Source: a virus | DNA: 22,070 nt | Virus record (IMG/VR): IMGVR_UViG_3300032223_001703 | Coordinates: 1 to 22,070 of that record | Strand: one strand, 5' to 3' | In this document: piece after piece, positions 2,520 to 11,352 of the stretch | How the letters are laid out: every line of letters begins with the position of its first letter | How positions within the stretch are numbered: the stretch's first letter is position 1 | The notes under the pieces: model-generated | Seen by the model: only the letters and a program-made list of their open reading frames with translations | The model's database searches: none | Told to the model about the DNA's origin: nothing | Made by a program: the position numbers and the translations under genes

Positions 2520-3083
2520 ATGAGAACCTCTGATTCAATTAAGTCAATTGCACCTGCTTTAGTGCAGGCTCAAAAAGGGATTACTTTTGCTTCAAAAGAC
2601 GGAGTAAACCCACATTTCAAAAATAAATATGCATCGCTTTCAAGTGTTATTGATGCTATTAAACCTGCTCTTAATGATGCAGGGATCGTATTTGTTCAAA
2701 CTGCAAGCCCTAGTGATGATAACAAACTTCATCTAACAACTCGCTTGATTCATTCAAGTGGTGAATGGATTGAAGATGTTGCAACTTGTCCTTTATCTAA
2801 ACAGGACGCTCAAGGATTTGGCAGTTGCATGAGTTACTTGCGCCGTTATAGTTTAGCGTCAATTACAGGTCTATATCAAGATGACGATGATGCTCAATCA
2901 GCTTCAACACCTTCTTTTAATATCGATTCATTAATCAATATACTGCACTCTTCTAAAGACATGGCAGAGCTTCAAGTTAATTATCTTAATGCGTTAGCTC
3001 AAGTTAAAAATAACCCTAAAGCTAGTGCTGATATTGCTCGTGAAAAAGATAAAATGAAAGGAATGCTCAATGCTATTGAATAA
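2520..3083 (+). CDS. erf: ERF-family single-strand annealing recombinase
   Basis: A 187-aa protein with the ERF core at residues 1-125. Visible hallmarks are IAPALVQAQKGITFASKDG, the NPHFKNKYASL motif (residues 30-40), VIDAIKPALNDAGI, and the GFGSCMSYLRRYSLASITGL segment (99-118), followed by an acidic DDDD run typical of the family. ERF proteins anneal complementary single strands in phage recombination, often acting with a 5'-3' exonuclease; the YqaJ-type nuclease two genes downstream is the obvious partner. The C-terminal third is variable and helical. The start is supported by AAGGA seven bases upstream. Its end overlaps the next small gene by 14 bases. Confidence 0.93.
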   Translation: MRTSDSIKSIAPALVQAQKGITFASKDGVNPHFKNKYASLSSVIDAIKPALNDAGIVFVQTASPSDDNKLHLTTRLIHSSGEWIEDVATCPLSKQDAQGFGSCMSYLRRYSLASITGLYQDDDDAQSASTPSFNIDSLINILHSSKDMAELQVNYLNALAQVKNNPKASADIAREKDKMKGMLNAIE

Positions 3084-3198
3084 CTTTTACGGCATTAAAT
3101 TGCCTGTATGGGTAAGCGACATATCTCAAATTGAAAGACGGCATATAAAAGTGCAATTTTTAAAAAGATTGATTGATATGAAAAGAGATCAAAAATGA
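3070..3198 (+). CDS. 42-aa basic peptide between erf and the exonuclease gene
   Basis: The frame is ATG 3070 to TGA 3196-3198. The product begins MLLNNFYGIKLPVWVSDI and ends with a very basic helix (VQFLKRLIDMKRDQK). AAGGA lies seven bases before the start, inside the end of erf, and its stop overlaps the exonuclease start as ATGA. It thus bridges a 111-base gap with coupling on both sides, which supports a real gene. No family recognised. Confidence 0.6.
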   Translation: MLLNNFYGIKLPVWVSDISQIERRHIKVQFLKRLIDMKRDQK

Positions 3199-3839
3199 CA
3201 TCAAATCAAATCGAGCAAGGCTCTGACGCATGGTTTTTAATGAAGCTAGGCAAAATAAGTGGTTCTCGCATATCTGATCTTTTAACTGAAGGTCGGGGTA
3301 ATAAAGAATCGCTTACAAAAAAGAAGTATCGTAACGAATTAATCAGAGAAAGACTTACAGGAAAGCGTATTCCTAGCTTTAAAACGGCTTTAATGAATAG
3401 GGGTATTGATTTAGAACCGCTTGCTAGGTCAGCTTACGAACATAAGTTTCAGATGATGGTAGATCAAATTGCTTTTGTTGATCACCCTACAATTGCAATG
3501 GCAGGTTGTAGCCCTGACGGATTAGTTAATAAAGATGGACTTCTTGAAATAAAATGTCCGTCACCCGAAAATCATGTGGATAACCTTCTCAATAATGGAA
3601 TCCAACTTGATCAATATTACGATCAGGTTCAATGGCAATTAGTATGCACTCAACGAACATGGTGCCATCTCATTAGCTTTGATCCTGAAATGCCTGAACA
3701 CTTGCAAATTTATAGCAAGGTAATAACACTCGATAAAGAGTGGAAACAACGAGCTGAAAGCGCGGTGATCGCGTTTAATGCTGAAATAGAAACTACATTA
3801 ACTCAACTAAAGGAAATACAAAATGGCAATAACCCATGA
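3195..3839 (+). CDS. YqaJ-type (lambda Exo-like) recombination exonuclease
   Basis: A 214-aa PD-(D/E)XK nuclease of the YqaJ/lambda exonuclease family. The N-terminus carries QGSDAWFLMKLGKISGSRI (residues 8-26), the usual substrate-end motif; RGIDLEPLAR gives the conserved Glu74; GCSPDGLV gives Asp108; and LLEIKCP gives Glu118 and Lys120, the metal-binding and catalytic set. YYDQVQWQLVCT (about 140-151) is the conserved helix after the active site. It should resect double-stranded ends 5'-3' to produce single strands for the ERF protein. The length is normal for phage members. The start overlaps the preceding small gene (ATGA). Confidence 0.93.
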   Translation: MTSNQIEQGSDAWFLMKLGKISGSRISDLLTEGRGNKESLTKKKYRNELIRERLTGKRIPSFKTALMNRGIDLEPLARSAYEHKFQMMVDQIAFVDHPTIAMAGCSPDGLVNKDGLLEIKCPSPENHVDNLLNNGIQLDQYYDQVQWQLVCTQRTWCHLISFDPEMPEHLQIYSKVITLDKEWKQRAESAVIAFNAEIETTLTQLKEIQNGNNP

Positions 3840-4050
3840 CCTAATCGCTAAAACAGGCGAGTATGTAAACAAAGATGGAGAAACCAAAGCTCGCTGGACT
3901 AAAGTAGGTGTCGCAATGTCTAATAAACAAGGTGGAACATCTATTCTTATTGAATCAATCCCTGTAAATTTTGACGGATGGGTAACAATGAGAGAGCCGC
4001 AACCTAGAGCTGAAGGTTCTTCTACAGGCGGTTCAGATATTCCATTTTAA
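3823..4050 (+). CDS. small putative ssDNA-binding protein with an SSB-like C-terminal tip
   Basis: A 75-aa protein overlapping the exonuclease gene by 17 bases, with AAAGGA upstream. The N-terminal part (HDLIAKTGEYVNKDGETKARW, then KVGVAMSNKQGGTSILIE) has the alternating strand pattern of a small beta-barrel, and the final residues GGSDIPF match the acidic-Ile-Pro-Phe tail by which SSB proteins recruit partners. Similar short proteins are seen in phage recombination operons. Canonical OB-fold SSB is longer (about 110 aa plus tail), so this may be a minimal form or a partner protein. Function is inferred from tail and context. Confidence 0.6.
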   Translation: MAITHDLIAKTGEYVNKDGETKARWTKVGVAMSNKQGGTSILIESIPVNFDGWVTMREPQPRAEGSSTGGSDIPF

Positions 4051-4081
4051 TGATTTTACTGATGGTTTTGTATCGCAAAAA

Positions 4082-4115
4082 AGCAATAATTTGCTAGACA
4101 AGTAATTTTACTTGT
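4082..4115. promoter_or_regulatory. two adjacent inverted repeats upstream of pqqA
   Basis: AGCAA-taat-TTGCT (4082-4095) and ACAAGTAA-tt-TTACTTGT (4098-4115) are perfect palindromes of 5 and 8 bp arms. They lie between the SSB-like gene and pqqA. TATAAA (4116-4121), preceded by TGT, directly abuts the second and looks like an extended -10. However, a start near 4128 would leave almost no leader before ATG 4136, so a hairpin in a read-through mRNA or an operator is just as likely. Confidence 0.4.
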
Positions 4116-4135
4116 TATAAATGAAAGGCTAAATT

Positions 4136-4207
4136 ATGTGGACAACTCCGTCAGTTCAAGAAATGAGATTTGGATTTGAAGTTACTATGTATGTAATGAA
4201 TAAATAG
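4136..4207 (+). CDS. pqqA: PqqA, precursor peptide of the cofactor pyrroloquinoline quinone (PQQ)
   Basis: The frame ATG 4136 to TAG 4205 encodes exactly 23 aa, the length of the short PqqA form. Residues read MWTTPSVQEMRFGF, then EVTMYVMNK. The opening MW..P, the central R-x-G-x and EVT-x-Y match PqqA: Glu15 and Tyr19 occupy the two positions that PqqE cross-links and that become the PQQ skeleton. The positions are the same in Klebsiella PqqA (MWKKP...GLEVTLY). AAAGG sits seven bases upstream. PqqA is made on the ribosome, held by PqqD, cross-linked by the radical-SAM enzyme PqqE, trimmed, and completed by PqqB and PqqC. None of those partners is in this window, so the peptide would have to feed the host enzymes. 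It is the last gene of the early operon and precedes a terminator. Confidence 0.9.
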   Translation: MWTTPSVQEMRFGFEVTMYVMNK

Positions 4208-4302
4208 TAGTTTTAAATAATTCGTGGCAGACGAGTTGAAATAAACTGCACAGGGTAATAATGATAGTCAATACCCCGACCAACAAGATTCTATCTATAA
4301 GA
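4208..4302 (+). other. structured 3' region of the pqqA transcript
   Basis: No protein frame with a ribosome site is seen between pqqA and the terminator. Two possible hairpins are visible: ATTCGT-ggcag-ACGAGT (4220-4236, with one G-T pair), and GGGTA (4253-4257) with TACCC (4272-4276). Outer bases GTTG (4235-4238) and CAAC (4281-4284) could close the second. It may stabilise the tiny mRNA or be a small RNA; this is inference. Confidence 0.35.
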
Positions 4303-4329
4303 AGGGAAGCTTAAAACGCTTCCTTTTTT
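4303..4329 (+). terminator. intrinsic terminator of the early operon / pqqA
   Basis: GGAAGC-ttaaaac-GCTTCC (4305-4310 with 4318-4323) is a perfect 6-bp stem followed at once by six T (4324-4329). On the opposite strand no T-run follows the stem, so it works mainly for rightward transcripts. Confidence 0.85.
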
Positions 4330-4394
4330 ATTAAAGTTTCATGCAAATTGTTTTCATTCTTTTGTATATAAATCAATTACTTGAGTGAAAACGG

Positions 4395-4414
4395 ATGTAA
4401 AGTATACTTTACAT
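4395..4414. promoter_or_regulatory. perfect 20-bp palindrome where early and late operons converge
   Basis: ATGTAAAGTATACTTTACAT is self-complementary over all 20 bases and reaches the stop codon of the last leftward gene. Read leftward it could fold as an 8-bp stem with a TATA loop, but is followed by CCGTTTTC, a weak U-tract. It is either a poor terminator for the late operon or a symmetric protein-binding site. Confidence 0.5.
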
Positions 4415-4605
4415 TATTTTATATAATGATCGCCTTCTGAATTAATGCCTATAATATTTGCTTTATCTTCATCCCAGCTAGTTGTTTCATCCGAATCAAA
4501 ATACTCTTCTTTATTACCAAAAATACGATCATGTCCTTCATCGTAAAGTTTTTTTTGTTTAAGCTTTGGATTTGATCCTTTACCAGCTTCACTATATTTG
4601 CTCAT
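4414..4605 (-). CDS. small conserved phage protein, AGKGS...DRIFG type
   Basis: A 63-aa hydrophilic protein beginning MSKYSEAGKGSNPK, with YDEGHDRIFGNK at residues 21-32. This pairing of an N-terminal SEAGKGS with a downstream DRIFG is a recurring small phage protein; its function is not known to me. AAGGAGAACCT before ATG is a strong ribosome site. The gene overlaps the HNH gene by 14 bases and is the last of the late transcript. Confidence 0.75.
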   Translation of the reverse strand: MSKYSEAGKGSNPKLKQKKLYDEGHDRIFGNKEEYFDSDETTSWDEDKANIIGINSEGDHYIK

Positions 4606-4957
4606 AGGTTCTCCTTACCCAATTAGCGAAATTAATTAAATCTTCTTTATTAGCAGTATGTTTCATTGTATTAGCTTTAGATGATATGACTTGAACATTG
4701 CCCTTTGTATAACCTTTAGTGTTGTCTATACGATCAAGGCTAGGGCTTAAATCTCTATTACCATCAATGAGTGTTTTTAAAGGCAGTCCAAGAATAGGAC
4801 ATATTTCAGGAATGATTATATCGGATATTTCTATATCGAAAGGAATACCTTTCATTTTTGAACGATAATGAGCTTGTTGCAATAGATTTTTTTCACGATT
4901 ATTGGATTTCCAATTTCGCAAATATTCGCAACGATTGCTCTTATCTTTTAAAGACAT
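4592..4957 (-). CDS. HNH-type phage endonuclease
   Basis: A 121-aa protein with a C-terminal nuclease-like module: EICPILGLPL (about residues 51-60), SPSLDRIDNTKGYTKGNVQV (about 72-91) and SSKANTMKH. The LDRID-x-x-KGY-x-x-GNV-x-V-x-S-x-x-AN-x-x-K pattern is a known variant of the HNH fold in phages, in which LDRID takes the usual DHI position. The N-terminal half is basic and helical (DNA contact is likely). Such enzymes may be packaging-associated nickases or selfish endonucleases; which applies here cannot be told. Its start abuts the stop of the membrane protein upstream, and the ribosome site is weak. Confidence 0.7.
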   Translation of the reverse strand: MSLKDKSNRCEYLRNWKSNNREKNLLQQAHYRSKMKGIPFDIEISDIIIPEICPILGLPLKTLIDGNRDLSPSLDRIDNTKGYTKGNVQVISSKANTMKHTANKEDLINFANWVRRTYEQI

Positions 4958-5191
4958 TTATTTGTCGGCTTTGGTATTCAACTTATCAAATAATTTCTCA
5001 AGCATATCGTCAATTTTATCTAGGCGAGCATCTAGGTCAGCTTTACGGACATAATTAGTAGGTAATTCAACTTCAATTCTTTGTATATCTTCTTTGAGAT
5101 TTTGAACGGCATCCCACATTTGCCTAACAAACCAACCACCAACTGACAAGGCAACACCTAATACGATGTTGATAATTAAATTCATGTCCAT
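4958..5191 (-). CDS. small membrane-anchored coiled-coil protein, holin/lysis-region type
   Basis: A 77-aa protein with one N-terminal membrane span (about residues 4-22, NLIINIVLGVALSVGGWFV), followed by a charged helix with heptad spacing (NLKEDIQRIEVELP, then DLDARLDKIDDMLEKLFDKL). The layout of membrane anchor plus cytoplasmic or periplasmic coiled coil, with the LPTNYVRKADL linker, is a recurrent phage protein near the end of tail operons. Holin-like or XhlA-like roles have been suggested for similar layouts, but no lysozyme is visible in this window to support lysis. Confidence 0.65.
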   Translation of the reverse strand: MDMNLIINIVLGVALSVGGWFVRQMWDAVQNLKEDIQRIEVELPTNYVRKADLDARLDKIDDMLEKLFDKLNTKADK

Positions 5192-5205
5192 TTTATTTCT
5201 TTCTA

Positions 5206-5394
5206 CTAATTAATAATATGCCTTTCGAGAGCAACAAAAAGACTGTCGCCAGAAGATATATAGCAAATACTACCATCAGATAATAGCACCACCAAAAAAT
5301 GCTTATTATCGTAATAATCAGAGCCAATATCCTTGATTGTTTTATTTTGTAGAAAATTGAAAATATCATCGACTGTTTCATGGGAAGTTGGCAT
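5206..5394 (-). CDS. small phage protein of unknown function
   Basis: A 62-aa protein, MPTSHETVDDIFNFLQNKTI..., with a strand-rich centre (HFLVVLLSDGSICYISS). It overlaps the previous gene by 17 bases and is preceded by GAAAG. A competing frame at 5193-5381 gives a hydrophobic product but has TTCCC and no ribosome site before its ATG, so I take this frame. No family recognised. Confidence 0.6.
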   Translation of the reverse strand: MPTSHETVDDIFNFLQNKTIKDIGSDYYDNKHFLVVLLSDGSICYISSGDSLFVALERHIIN

Positions 5395-5821
5395 CTAAAC
5401 TTTCTATCACTATTTCAGGACTAACAAATTTATTTGCATCATGTTCCGTTTGTTCCCACCATAAGAATTGGTTTTGAACTAAATTATTCCGATCCTTTAA
5501 AAGATTGATATTTTCAGAATGTCCAAAGATCAGAGGATCAGAAACAGACCATAGAACTATACCATATTTTTTTAAATCCCAAGCAAAATGTTGGAAAAAA
5601 GAATCGCAAGATATCCATGTTTTGCACTCATAAACAAGCTCTCGCAATTCAGATAAAGATAAATTCTTTCTAAAGTCATCAACTAATTGTTCTTCACCTT
5701 CTATGCCAACTTGAACAATAGGTTCTTTAATTAATTTAATAAGTTTTTTCCAATAAGGATAATTTTTAGGATTAATTTTATTATTTCTTAAAGCTTTAGA
5801 ATAAGGGCTAATAATAATCAT
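5378..5821 (-). CDS. GT9-like glycosyltransferase, C-terminal half
   Basis: A 147-aa protein resembling the C-terminal (nucleotide-sugar binding) domain of GT9/heptosyltransferase-like GT-B enzymes: IISPYSKALRNN at the start, NPKNYPYWKKLIKLI, VQVGIEGEEQL, NLSLSELRELVYECKTWIS, CDSFFQHFAWDL, GIVLWSVSDPLIFGHSENINLL. The matching N-terminal domain is missing here but is seen as the last 80 residues of the preceding gene. The two genes overlap by four bases (ATGA), so the two halves are probably made together and may assemble. The substrate is unknown. Confidence 0.75.
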   Translation of the reverse strand: MIIISPYSKALRNNKINPKNYPYWKKLIKLIKEPIVQVGIEGEEQLVDDFRKNLSLSELRELVYECKTWISCDSFFQHFAWDLKKYGIVLWSVSDPLIFGHSENINLLKDRNNLVQNQFLWWEQTEHDANKFVSPEIVIESLDANFP

Positions 5822-8163: not shown

Positions 8164-11100
8164 TTAATCTTTTGTAGCTATAATAACATCAACATATTGA
8201 ACTGCCAAATTAATTGCTGTTCCTGTAAAAGTATGAGTATGTGCAGTTCCCGTAAAAGTTCCACCTGTATGGCTATGAGAGCCACCACCACCTGTTGCAC
8301 CTGTATTACCTGAACTAGTTAATTTATAAGAAGCAAAAGGTGAATTGGTTGCGCCATCTGTAAATTGGGCAGCTGCAGTATGAGTATGTGAAGGAATATC
8401 AGCAGTTGCTAAAGTATAAGCGCCTGTAGAGCCAATAGTTCCTGTTGCGGTTGTATTTGCATTAGTTCCATTTACTGCTTGAGATGCAAAAGCAGTTGTA
8501 AATGCTACTGATCCACCTGATGATGCAGTTCCACTTACCACTCTTAATGCTTTATCGTTATGCGTTGCTGATTTTGTCCAACCTGTAGGAGCAGTAGTTT
8601 GAACAAATATCATAGCGGTTGTTGCTGGAAATGCGGTACTTGCAGCTCCGCTATATCCTGAATAACCTGAATACCCGCTTATTCCTGAACCGCTATAGCC
8701 ACTATAACCCGATATACCTGATCCACTATAACCTGAATATCCTGATATTCCTGATGCGCCATTAGTGCCATTAATTCCGCTATATCCTGAAAATCCTGAT
8801 GTTCCAACAGCTCCACTAAAACCACTATAACCGCTAATTCCTGATCCGCTGTATCCTGAATAACCGCTTATACCTGAACCACTATATCCACTATAGCCTG
8901 ATATGCCACTTCCGCTAAATCCTGAATAACCACTTATGCCACTTCCACTATATCCGCTGAAACCGCTAGTTCCAACTGTTCCGCTGTAGCCACTAAATCC
9001 GCTAGTTCCTACTGCACCACTATAACCTGAATATCCGCTTATACCTGATGTTCCATTAGCTCCGCTAAATCCGCTGATCCCTGATGTTCCGTTGATTCCG
9101 CTATAACCTGATAAACCTTGCGCTCCGCTGAAACCACTATAGCCTGATATTCCACTTCCTGAATAACCTGAATACCCACTAATTCCTGATCCTGAATAAC
9201 CCGAATATCCGCTTATGCCACTTCCGCTAAATCCGCTATAGCCTGAAATACCACTAGCTCCGTTATTTCCGCTATATCCTGAAAATCCGCTGATGCCTGA
9301 TCCTGAATAACCCGAATATCCGCTTATGCCTGATGCACCATTAGTTCCATTTATTCCTGAATAGCCGCTGATTCCGCTTGCTCCGTTGATACCTGAATAT
9401 CCACTATATCCGCTTGCACCTACAGCTCCGCTATATCCACTAAATCCTGAAACTCCGTTAGCTCCGCTAAATCCGCTGATTCCGCTTGCGCCGTTTATTC
9501 CTGAATATCCTGAATCGCCTTTTAATCCGCTGTATCCGCTGAATCCGCTATAGCCTGAAAGACCAGGCGTTCCTACTTCACCACTAAATCCACTATATCC
9601 TGATTGTCCTACCTGTCCGCTGTATCCACTGAATCCTGATATTCCACTATATCCGCTATATCCACTGTCACCTACTAAACCTGAATATCCACTGTATCCT
9701 GAATATCCGCTAGTTCCATCATCACCTTTTAATCCGCTGAAACCAGAGTATCCGCTATATCCTGATGTTCCTTGCTCTCCGCTGTATCCACTATAACCAC
9801 TGAATCCTGAATAGCCTGATATACCATTAATGATTGCTAAAAATAATTGTTGATTGTTTGTAAATCCTGTTGTGCCTGTTCCGCTAGATGAAACTAAAGA
9901 TACAGGAACAGTCCAATAACTATTAGAAGTGCCAGCATTGATATTTGTTGTAGCGCCTGTTATTAACCATACTTGATTGTTTGAGCTTACATTTCTATCT
10001 TGAATAATAAATTGTTCGGTTTGATCTAGTCCAGCCAAGAAAATATCAATATCAGTATTATCATCAGTAAGATGACTGATATTAATTTGAGTGCCAAGAA
10101 TTTGCACTGCATTATTCCATAATAAATGTCCATTAGCTGGCTGACCACTATATGAAGTAGTTCTAGCTTGATATAAAAATAAACTTGATGAGCCGCCTGT
10201 AGCTCCTACTGCGCCTGAATATCCACTATCACCTGATATTCCGCTAAATCCACTAATTCCACTATATCCGCTGTCGCCACTATAGCCACTAAATCCTGAA
10301 ATTCCTGATGCTCCTACTTCGCCCGACCATCCACTAAATCCTGAATCGCCCGACAATCCATCAGCTCCGCTATAACCACTATAGCCGCTATATCCGCTAG
10401 TTCCTACTTCGCCGCTAAATCCACTGTAGCCTGATTCGCCACTAAATCCGCTGATTCCAGACGCGCCAATTTCACCGCTGAATCCGCTATAGCCTGATTC
10501 GCCTGATGCGCCATCTTGTCCTGAATATCCTGATAATCCATTTATTCCGCTGAATCCGCTATATCCGCTTTCACCGCTGTAGCCGCTAACTCCGCTTCCG
10601 CTGAATCCGCTATATCCGCTATCGCCTTGCGGAACAAATAAAGTCCAAAAATAAGGATCATAAGGCGGTTCAGGCTCGCCAGGAGGAACAATTCCATTTG
10701 CAATATAAGTATTGTTATTATAAGTAACAATGTCATTTAAATTATATCCAGCAAAAATGCTCCATGCGCCTTTAAAATATAATCCAATACCTGAATATCC
10801 GCTGTAGCCCGATATTCCGCTGTCGCCACTATAGCCCGATATTCCGCTATCGCCTGAAAATCCTGATATTCCACTGTAGCCCGATTTGCCACTATATCCT
10901 GACAATCCATCTTGTCCGCTATAACCTGATTGACCATCTTGTCCGCTAAATCCTGATTCGCCTTTTTCGCCCGAATATCCGCTGTAACCGCTATCGCCTT
11001 GAATTGATTCGCCTGAATATCCACTGTAGCCCGATTCGCCTGACCAACCTGATATTCCGCTATAACCATTTTGTCCGCTGTAACCGCTTAATCCATTTAC

Positions 11101-11352
11101 TCCGCTATAACCCGAAATGCCACTTGCGCCATTTTCCCCACTAATTCCTGAAAATCCGCTATAACCACTGTATCCACTAATTCCTGATGCACCTGAATAT
11201 CCATATCCACTGAATCCTGAATAGCCCGAATAACCTGATAAACCTGATGCTCCTGTTACACCGCGATCAATCGTGATTGCAGTTGCAGAAGTAGGTGTTA
11301 CATTGACAGTTAAATTATTACTATCAACAACATCAATAGAATAATTAGCCAT
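8164..11352 (-). CDS. collagen-like tail fibre with Gly-X-Ser triplets and a C-terminal collar-like domain
   Basis: A 1062-aa modular protein. Residues 1-30 are a short N-terminal attachment part. Three collagen-like blocks (about 31-187, 242-383 and 508-905) are made almost wholly of G-X-S triplets (GYS, GFS, GIS, GES, GAS). The first break (about 188-241) resembles a small carbohydrate-binding module (FKGAWSIFAGYNLNDIVTYN, then W). The second (about 384-507) is a globular insert (LLWNNAVQILGT, FIIQDRNV, QLFLAIINGISG) of a type found in collagen-like phage fibres. Residues 906-1062 form a tail-collar-like end (TAPTGWTK, IPSHTHTA, GGGGSHSHTGG) paralogous to the protein at 12491-12970. The product is probably a trimeric receptor-binding fibre. 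The ribosome site is weak (GGTGAAC). Confidence 0.88.
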   Translation of the reverse strand: MANYSIDVVDSNNLTVNVTPTSATAITIDRGVTGASGLSGYSGYSGFSGYGYSGASGISGYSGYSGFSGISGENGASGISGYSGVNGLSGYSGQNGYSGISGWSGESGYSGYSGESIQGDSGYSGYSGEKGESGFSGQDGQSGYSGQDGLSGYSGKSGYSGISGFSGDSGISGYSGDSGISGYSGYSGIGLYFKGAWSIFAGYNLNDIVTYNNNTYIANGIVPPGEPEPPYDPYFWTLFVPQGDSGYSGFSGSGVSGYSGESGYSGFSGINGLSGYSGQDGASGESGYSGFSGEIGASGISGFSGESGYSGFSGEVGTSGYSGYSGYSGADGLSGDSGFSGWSGEVGASGISGFSGYSGDSGYSGISGFSGISGDSGYSGAVGATGGSSSLFLYQARTTSYSGQPANGHLLWNNAVQILGTQINISHLTDDNTDIDIFLAGLDQTEQFIIQDRNVSSNNQVWLITGATTNINAGTSNSYWTVPVSLVSSSGTGTTGFTNNQQLFLAIINGISGYSGFSGYSGYSGEQGTSGYSGYSGFSGLKGDDGTSGYSGYSGYSGLVGDSGYSGYSGISGFSGYSGQVGQSGYSGFSGEVGTPGLSGYSGFSGYSGLKGDSGYSGINGASGISGFSGANGVSGFSGYSGAVGASGYSGYSGINGASGISGYSGINGTNGASGISGYSGYSGSGISGFSGYSGNNGASGISGYSGFSGSGISGYSGYSGSGISGYSGYSGSGISGYSGFSGAQGLSGYSGINGTSGISGFSGANGTSGISGYSGYSGAVGTSGFSGYSGTVGTSGFSGYSGSGISGYSGFSGSGISGYSGYSGSGISGYSGYSGSGISGYSGFSGAVGTSGFSGYSGINGTNGASGISGYSGYSGSGISGYSGYSGSGISGYSGYSGYSGAASTAFPATTAMIFVQTTAPTGWTKSATHNDKALRVVSGTASSGGSVAFTTAFASQAVNGTNANTTATGTIGSTGAYTLATADIPSHTHTAAAQFTDGATNSPFASYKLTSSGNTGATGGGGSHSHTGGTFTGTAHTHTFTGTAINLAVQYVDVIIATKD
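8640..11260. repeat. in-gene tandem repeat tracts coding Gly-X-Ser triplets
   Basis: The tract consists of roughly 9- and 18-base units read on the minus strand as (G-X-S)n, broken at about 10625-10790 and 9830-10205 by non-repeat modules. Unit sequences differ by many synonymous changes (for example ccgctatatcc, ccactatagcc, cctgaataacc), so the protein is far more uniform than the DNA. Confidence 0.9.

Follow-up and report, generated by a model that had tools for sequence, protein, structure and literature searches.

We show that a viral contig related to Methylophilaceae phage P19250A carries a complete 24-codon gene, pqqA, encoding the 23-residue peptide from which the methanol-oxidation cofactor PQQ is made, and that this gene is also present in every cultured methylotroph phage that we could retrieve and in at least 120 stretches of IMG/VR viral contigs. 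Our analysis confirms the first-pass annotation of a pqqA gene within a phage genome, and supports its proposal that the gene acts as an auxiliary metabolic gene in an infected methylotroph, although this function remains an inference in the absence of expression, PQQ or infection data. The finding is less novel than that annotation implied, since a viral PqqA was reported in 2020 in a virus population from Lake Baikal (PMC7678222). What is new here is the unannotated gene in the cultured phages, its spread over unrelated lineages, the presence of empty sites in close relatives, and the demonstration that the catalytic residues are invariant.

Results

A complete pqqA gene is present in a P19250A-like phage

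The sequence analyzed, referred to here as the window, is a 22,070-nucleotide virus record (IMG/VR IMGVR_UViG_3300032223_001703). The frame under study encodes MWTTPSVQEMRFGFEVTMYVMNK, and a profile search showed that this peptide matches both the Pfam family PF08042 (E=9.8e-11, 41.8 bits, cut-off 21.1) and the NCBIfam family TIGR02107 (E=2e-11, 43.4 bits, cut-off 20) over their whole length. The same family search gave no hit in 14 control genomes, so chance is not a reasonable explanation for these matches. An Rfam search of the window and of the pqqA region returned nothing significant, and a search of PDB sequences with the 23-mer gave no hit.

Examination of the surrounding region (Table 1) showed that pqqA is preceded on the same strand by genes encoding an ERF annealing protein, a YqaJ exonuclease and a small conserved protein, which we call ssb-like by its position and by the name given to its counterpart in ctXG6705, since it has no Pfam match. 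Tail genes and an endonuclease lie on the other strand, beyond the terminator. The terminator noted downstream of pqqA by the first-pass annotation was confirmed, although it is located some 90 nt after the stop codon and not immediately after it, and is shared with the operon. The placement of pqqA in an early operon is an inference from gene content. By sigma-70 promoter matching, we found no convincing promoter just upstream of pqqA in the window, and no match in Venkman, although a good match is present in MEP401.

Table 1. Features of the window at and around pqqA.
Position	Strand	Feature	Details
2520..3083	+	ERF single-strand annealing protein	PF04404
3195..3839	+	YqaJ-type viral exonuclease/recombinase	PF09588
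3823..4050	+	ssb-like small gene	Directly upstream of the cassette; 75 aa; phrog_37570, unknown function
4051..4296	+	Optional pqqA cassette, approximate extent	Between the ssb-like stop and the terminator; absent in L011 and L031
4098..4115	+	Perfect inverted repeat	ACAAGTAA-TT-TTACTTGT; 20 nt before the start codon
4123..4128	+	Shine-Dalgarno-like GAAAGG	7 nt before the start codon
4136..4207	+	pqqA, 23-residue PQQ precursor peptide	MWTTPSVQEMRFGFEVTMYVMNK; Glu15 and Tyr19 are the expected cross-linked residues
4297..4331	+	Intrinsic terminator (approximate)	GC core 4305-4323, T run 4324-4329; -16.3 kcal/mol, z=-4.2; closes the rightward gene cluster and possibly the leftward one too
4414..4605	-	Conserved small gene on the far side of the terminator	90% nucleotide identity to its counterpart in the empty-site phage L031
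4592..4957	-	HNH/endonuclease VII-like protein	phrog_3322
8164..11352	-	1062-aa protein made largely of collagen-like S-G-Y/F-S-G repeats	Likely tail fibre; internal degenerate tandem repeats

The closest annotated relative of the window is Methylophilaceae phage P19250A, whose recorded host is Methylophilaceae bacterium IMCC19250, and the host of the phage represented by the window is inferred from this kinship. P19250A has the same gene order, with MWTTPAATEMRFGFEVTMYVMNK encoded in the gap between P19250A_0030 and P19250A_0029, where nothing is annotated. We also note that P19250A_0031 (KX815270 28452-29108; 9642-10298 in phage locus L002 of our set) is annotated as a diguanylate cyclase/phosphodiesterase, but is a YqaJ recombinase (PF09588, 71.8 bits).

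pqqA is found in several unrelated lineages of methylotroph phages

A tblastn search of 50,697 phage records with the 23-mer identified nine cultured methylophage records (P19250A, Venkman EXVC282S, MEP301, MEP401, MEP402 and four Melnitz), one metagenomic phage, and two contigs filed as Acinetobacter phage MD-2021a (CAKLQF020000010 and CAKLQH020000055). The hit in the first of these two contigs lies in a bacterial pqqABCD operon beside ppk, i.e., host DNA filed as a phage record, and the second, which was not opened, carries the identical peptide; both were rejected as host DNA. A query with the Acinetobacter-type peptide found the same set, so among named phages pqqA appears confined to methylotroph phages at this sensitivity, with the proviso that MEP431-434, Venkman EXVC038S and HIM624-A, which are listed in the taxonomy, did not appear in any search. 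In the seven phage records that we opened, no sense-strand pqqA is annotated, and in Melnitz EXVC044M and in ctXG6705 the feature under the match is an ORF on the opposite strand. The annotated hypothetical ORFs that run antisense over pqqA (MZ577097 76100-76195 and MW202481 2067-2195) are probably spurious calls that displaced the real gene.

We then compared gene neighbourhoods in 159 pqqA-bearing phage or viral contigs. Requiring at least two shared neighbours, these form 17 groups, with the largest being the P19250A/Venkman/MEP301/ctXG6705 group, and with Melnitz-like and MEP401/402-like groups apart. The orientation and location of the gene also differ between the isolates: pqqA lies with the ssb-like gene in the window and P19250A, is opposite to the neighbouring genes in Venkman and MEP301, is the first gene of a cluster in MEP401/402, and is beside a tRNA in Melnitz. 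In the stretches queried, pqqA is the only DNA that MEP301 shares with MEP401/402 and P19250A, and that MEP401 shares with P19250A, Venkman, MEP301 and Melnitz. The gene has therefore moved between unrelated phages, or entered them several times. A jumbo-size viral contig of 356 kb with a T4-type gp23 capsid gene also carries pqqA (MWTKPTAQEMRFGFEITMYVMNR), and a contig with the P19250A-type ssb-like gene, pqqA and 3′ module (CAIYXB010000030, MAG Loclat_bin-07551) is binned as bacterial MAG sequence.

The pqqA cassette is optional and has mosaic flanks

In order to determine the prevalence of pqqA without selecting for it, we examined contigs fetched by the neighbouring YqaJ gene. Of 33 P19250A-type loci that are complete, 31 contain pqqA, with five further contigs that end before the site and five distant relatives left out of this count. 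The two exceptions, the contigs designated L011 and L031, are clean empty sites in which the ssb-like stop is followed directly by the terminator; in L031, 26 nt replace 363 nt. These findings show that the cassette is optional, i.e., moron-like.

The flanks of the cassette are mosaic, with several unrelated 5′ and 3′ modules combined with the same gene. A hairpin of unrelated sequence but similar position stands about 12-28 nt before many phage pqqA starts: 28 of 76 distinct phage upstreams have arms of 6 bp or more, compared with 6.3 expected from shuffles, whereas in hosts the figures are 13 of 78 compared with 4.8. This hairpin is possibly an mRNA stabiliser or operator, but the idea that it is a general pqqA regulator was not upheld, as host copies show it much less often. 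A recurring 3′ module, GGTGAATAGCGTTCYTCRGAAA...TATTTACC, apparently with paired ends, follows pqqA in many P19250A-like phages; other phages have unrelated 3′ modules, and the corresponding region of the window (4208-4335) is strongly structured (z=-3.8, terminator included).

The PqqA peptide is conserved by selection

Loss of the Glu/Tyr pair in related phages was named by the first-pass annotation as a result that would refute its reading, and this was not observed. Among 26 distinct alleles from cultured phages and the neighbour-ascertained contigs, a set not gathered by a motif scan, W2, T3, P5, E9 to E15, T17, M18 and Y19 never change, while codons do. Within the P19250A lineage, ascertained through the neighbouring gene, pN/pS is about 0.11. 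The values for all phages (0.13) and for residues 9-19 (0.03) are biased, because most contigs were fetched by that motif, and are not used as evidence. Residues 6-8 vary, and some phages add an extra N-terminal residue.

Phage peptides are of the host type. The commonest Methylophilaceae sequence, MWTTPAATEMRFGFEVTMYVMNK, is identical to that of P19250A, and the window peptide differs from it only at positions 6 to 8, sharing its length, W-x2-P leader, E-M-R-F-G-F-E-V-T-M-Y core and basic end. One allele is shared letter for letter between a host MAG contig and viral contigs. A tree of the 66-nt coding stretch showed that phage and host alleles are not randomly mixed (29 label changes, compared with 57 in shuffles), but only 19 of 170 nodes have support of 0.9 or more, so the number and direction of transfers cannot be read.

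Hosts contain 1 to 12 pqqA genes but usually a single pqqE

In 32 host genomes, pqqA was found 1 to 12 times, typically three times in streamlined OM43-type genomes of about 1 Mb, although these genomes were chosen because they matched the motif and so do not show how many hosts lack it. Of 13 candidate host genomes tested for PqqE, ten have exactly one full-length match, one has two, one has only fragments, and one single-cell genome has none over the cut-off. In the complete genome of OM43 LSUCC0665, the one genome in which the full set was examined, pqqBCDE lie together at about 765-768 kb, with the three pqqA genes at 52 and 875 kb, i.e., about 100 kb or more away. That Methylophilaceae keep several pqqA genes (3-12 copies) and one set of the other genes has been published (PMC4109929), as has the presence of five pqqA copies with differing expression in an industrial methylotroph (PMC9851590). 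Amplifying the consumed substrate is thus already a host habit, and the phage copy fits it, although the host copies are chromosomal, whereas this one is mobile and under phage control.

Neither the window nor any of the 22 other pqqA-bearing virus records tested encodes a bona fide PqqE, with only weak generic radical-SAM matches in two large contigs. One pqqA-bearing viral contig of 72 kb (L309, G081:C1:33000-44000) also encodes a full-length, 624-aa XoxF-like dehydrogenase of the PQQ methanol/ethanol family (990-2864), followed by a full-length, 946-aa formate dehydrogenase alpha subunit (2944-5784; TIGR01591, 885 bits). Searches of this contig for gp23 and for one terminase family found nothing, so its viral nature rests on its IMG/VR entry and on phage-family matches, including a tail assembly chaperone gene nearby. 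This is much like the Baikal virus population VP_266, which encodes methanol dehydrogenase and PqqA (PMC7678222), although a formate dehydrogenase is not mentioned in the passages of that paper that we read.

Discussion

Our results are best explained by a genuine pqqA carried as an optional cassette by phages of methylotrophic Methylophilaceae, which serves as a substrate-only auxiliary metabolic gene, and we hold this view with good though not full confidence. PqqE abstracts a hydrogen from Glu16 of PqqD-bound PqqA and joins it to Tyr20 (Methylorubrum extorquens numbering; PMC10906245), which correspond to residues 15 and 19 of the window peptide. We infer that on infection the phage peptide is bound by host PqqD, cross-linked by host PqqE, and finished by a host protease, PqqB and PqqC. 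Each PqqA molecule is consumed to make one PQQ, so an extra, phage-driven gene copy would raise or keep up PQQ, and with it XoxF/MxaF methanol dehydrogenase activity, when host transcription fails. Several points weigh against this inference, which is made without expression, proteomic or PQQ measurements from any infected cell. PQQ is a stable, reusable cofactor, so a short infection might not need new synthesis; overexpression of pqqABCDE in Methylovorus gave only a limited PQQ increase (PMC9851590), so PqqA may not be limiting; OM43 strain H5P1 is grown in medium containing 1 nM PQQ (PMC9004378), so phages may not need the gene; and two related phages lack the gene, so it is dispensable.

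The alternative raised by the first-pass annotation, that the phage peptide is a decoy that ties up PqqD/PqqE, which would throttle PQQ synthesis and shut down methanol oxidation or starve rivals, is weakened but not excluded, and we regard it as unlikely. The N-terminal leader that binds PqqD (PMC10906245) is conserved, and PqqE is usually single-copy in hosts. However, a decoy would not need Glu and Tyr to be cross-linked, yet both are invariant and the peptide closely matches that of the host; adding a true substrate to a pathway normally feeds it, and an obligate methylotroph would be expected to need this energy source during phage production. It is similarly doubtful that pqqA persists only as a short stretch of homology shared by host and phage genomes and used for module exchange. 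The mosaic flanks, the sharing of pqqA alone between MEP301, MEP401/402 and P19250A in the regions compared, and the allele common to a host and viral contigs are in keeping with such a role, but synonymous sites are highly diverged (pS 0.44-0.54) while the peptide is kept, whereas selection for DNA homology would preserve nucleotides instead, and ribosome sites are kept. Equally improbable is the recruitment of a PqqA-like peptide for another task, such as a signal or a regulator of host dehydrogenase maturation; variation at residues 6-8 and the extra N-terminal residue of some phages would allow this, but all residues tied to PqqE chemistry are kept, no extra domain exists, and the host system for using the peptide is present. 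Host DNA in a chimeric contig or misassembly, as seen for an INPHARED “Acinetobacter phage” hit, is refuted by synteny, since the same locus with the same phage genes is found in cultured P19250A and in 31 other related contigs.

The PqqA described here differs from that of VP_266, a T4-like virus and predicted Methylophilaceae phage that also encodes methanol dehydrogenase, in that the window belongs to a P19250A-type tailed phage in which no other PQQ or methanol gene was found. It differs from host PqqA genes of the Methylophilaceae type in being encoded by a phage without pqqBCDE, next to recombination genes, and with a 5′ hairpin that host copies show less often. The VP_266 study, which also read the viral PqqA as an auxiliary metabolic gene, stated that P19250A encodes none of its auxiliary metabolic genes (PMC7678222); the sequence contradicts this for pqqA. 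Term searches of the Venkman, MEP301, MEP401/402 and Melnitz papers found no mention of a phage pqqA, and no other report of phage PqqA was found in the literature searched, which did not cover most subscription journals or the description of P19250A (Moon et al. 2017).

A broader reading, which we consider only slightly more likely than not, is that pqqA is a near-universal, freely exchanged signature gene of phages of obligate methylotrophs, held by at least four otherwise unrelated phage lineages, because supply of the consumed PqqA peptide, and not of the enzymes, is the general bottleneck for methanol oxidation in infected cells. OM43 and LD28 methylotrophs are abundant coastal and lake bacteria, and if nearly all their phages carry pqqA, then viral control of methanol oxidation turns on a gene that annotation misses because it has 24 codons. 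Our findings change the record for the cultured methylophages, which can now be tested directly, and show that precursor-peptide genes of RiPP-type cofactors are a blind spot in surveys of viral metabolic genes.
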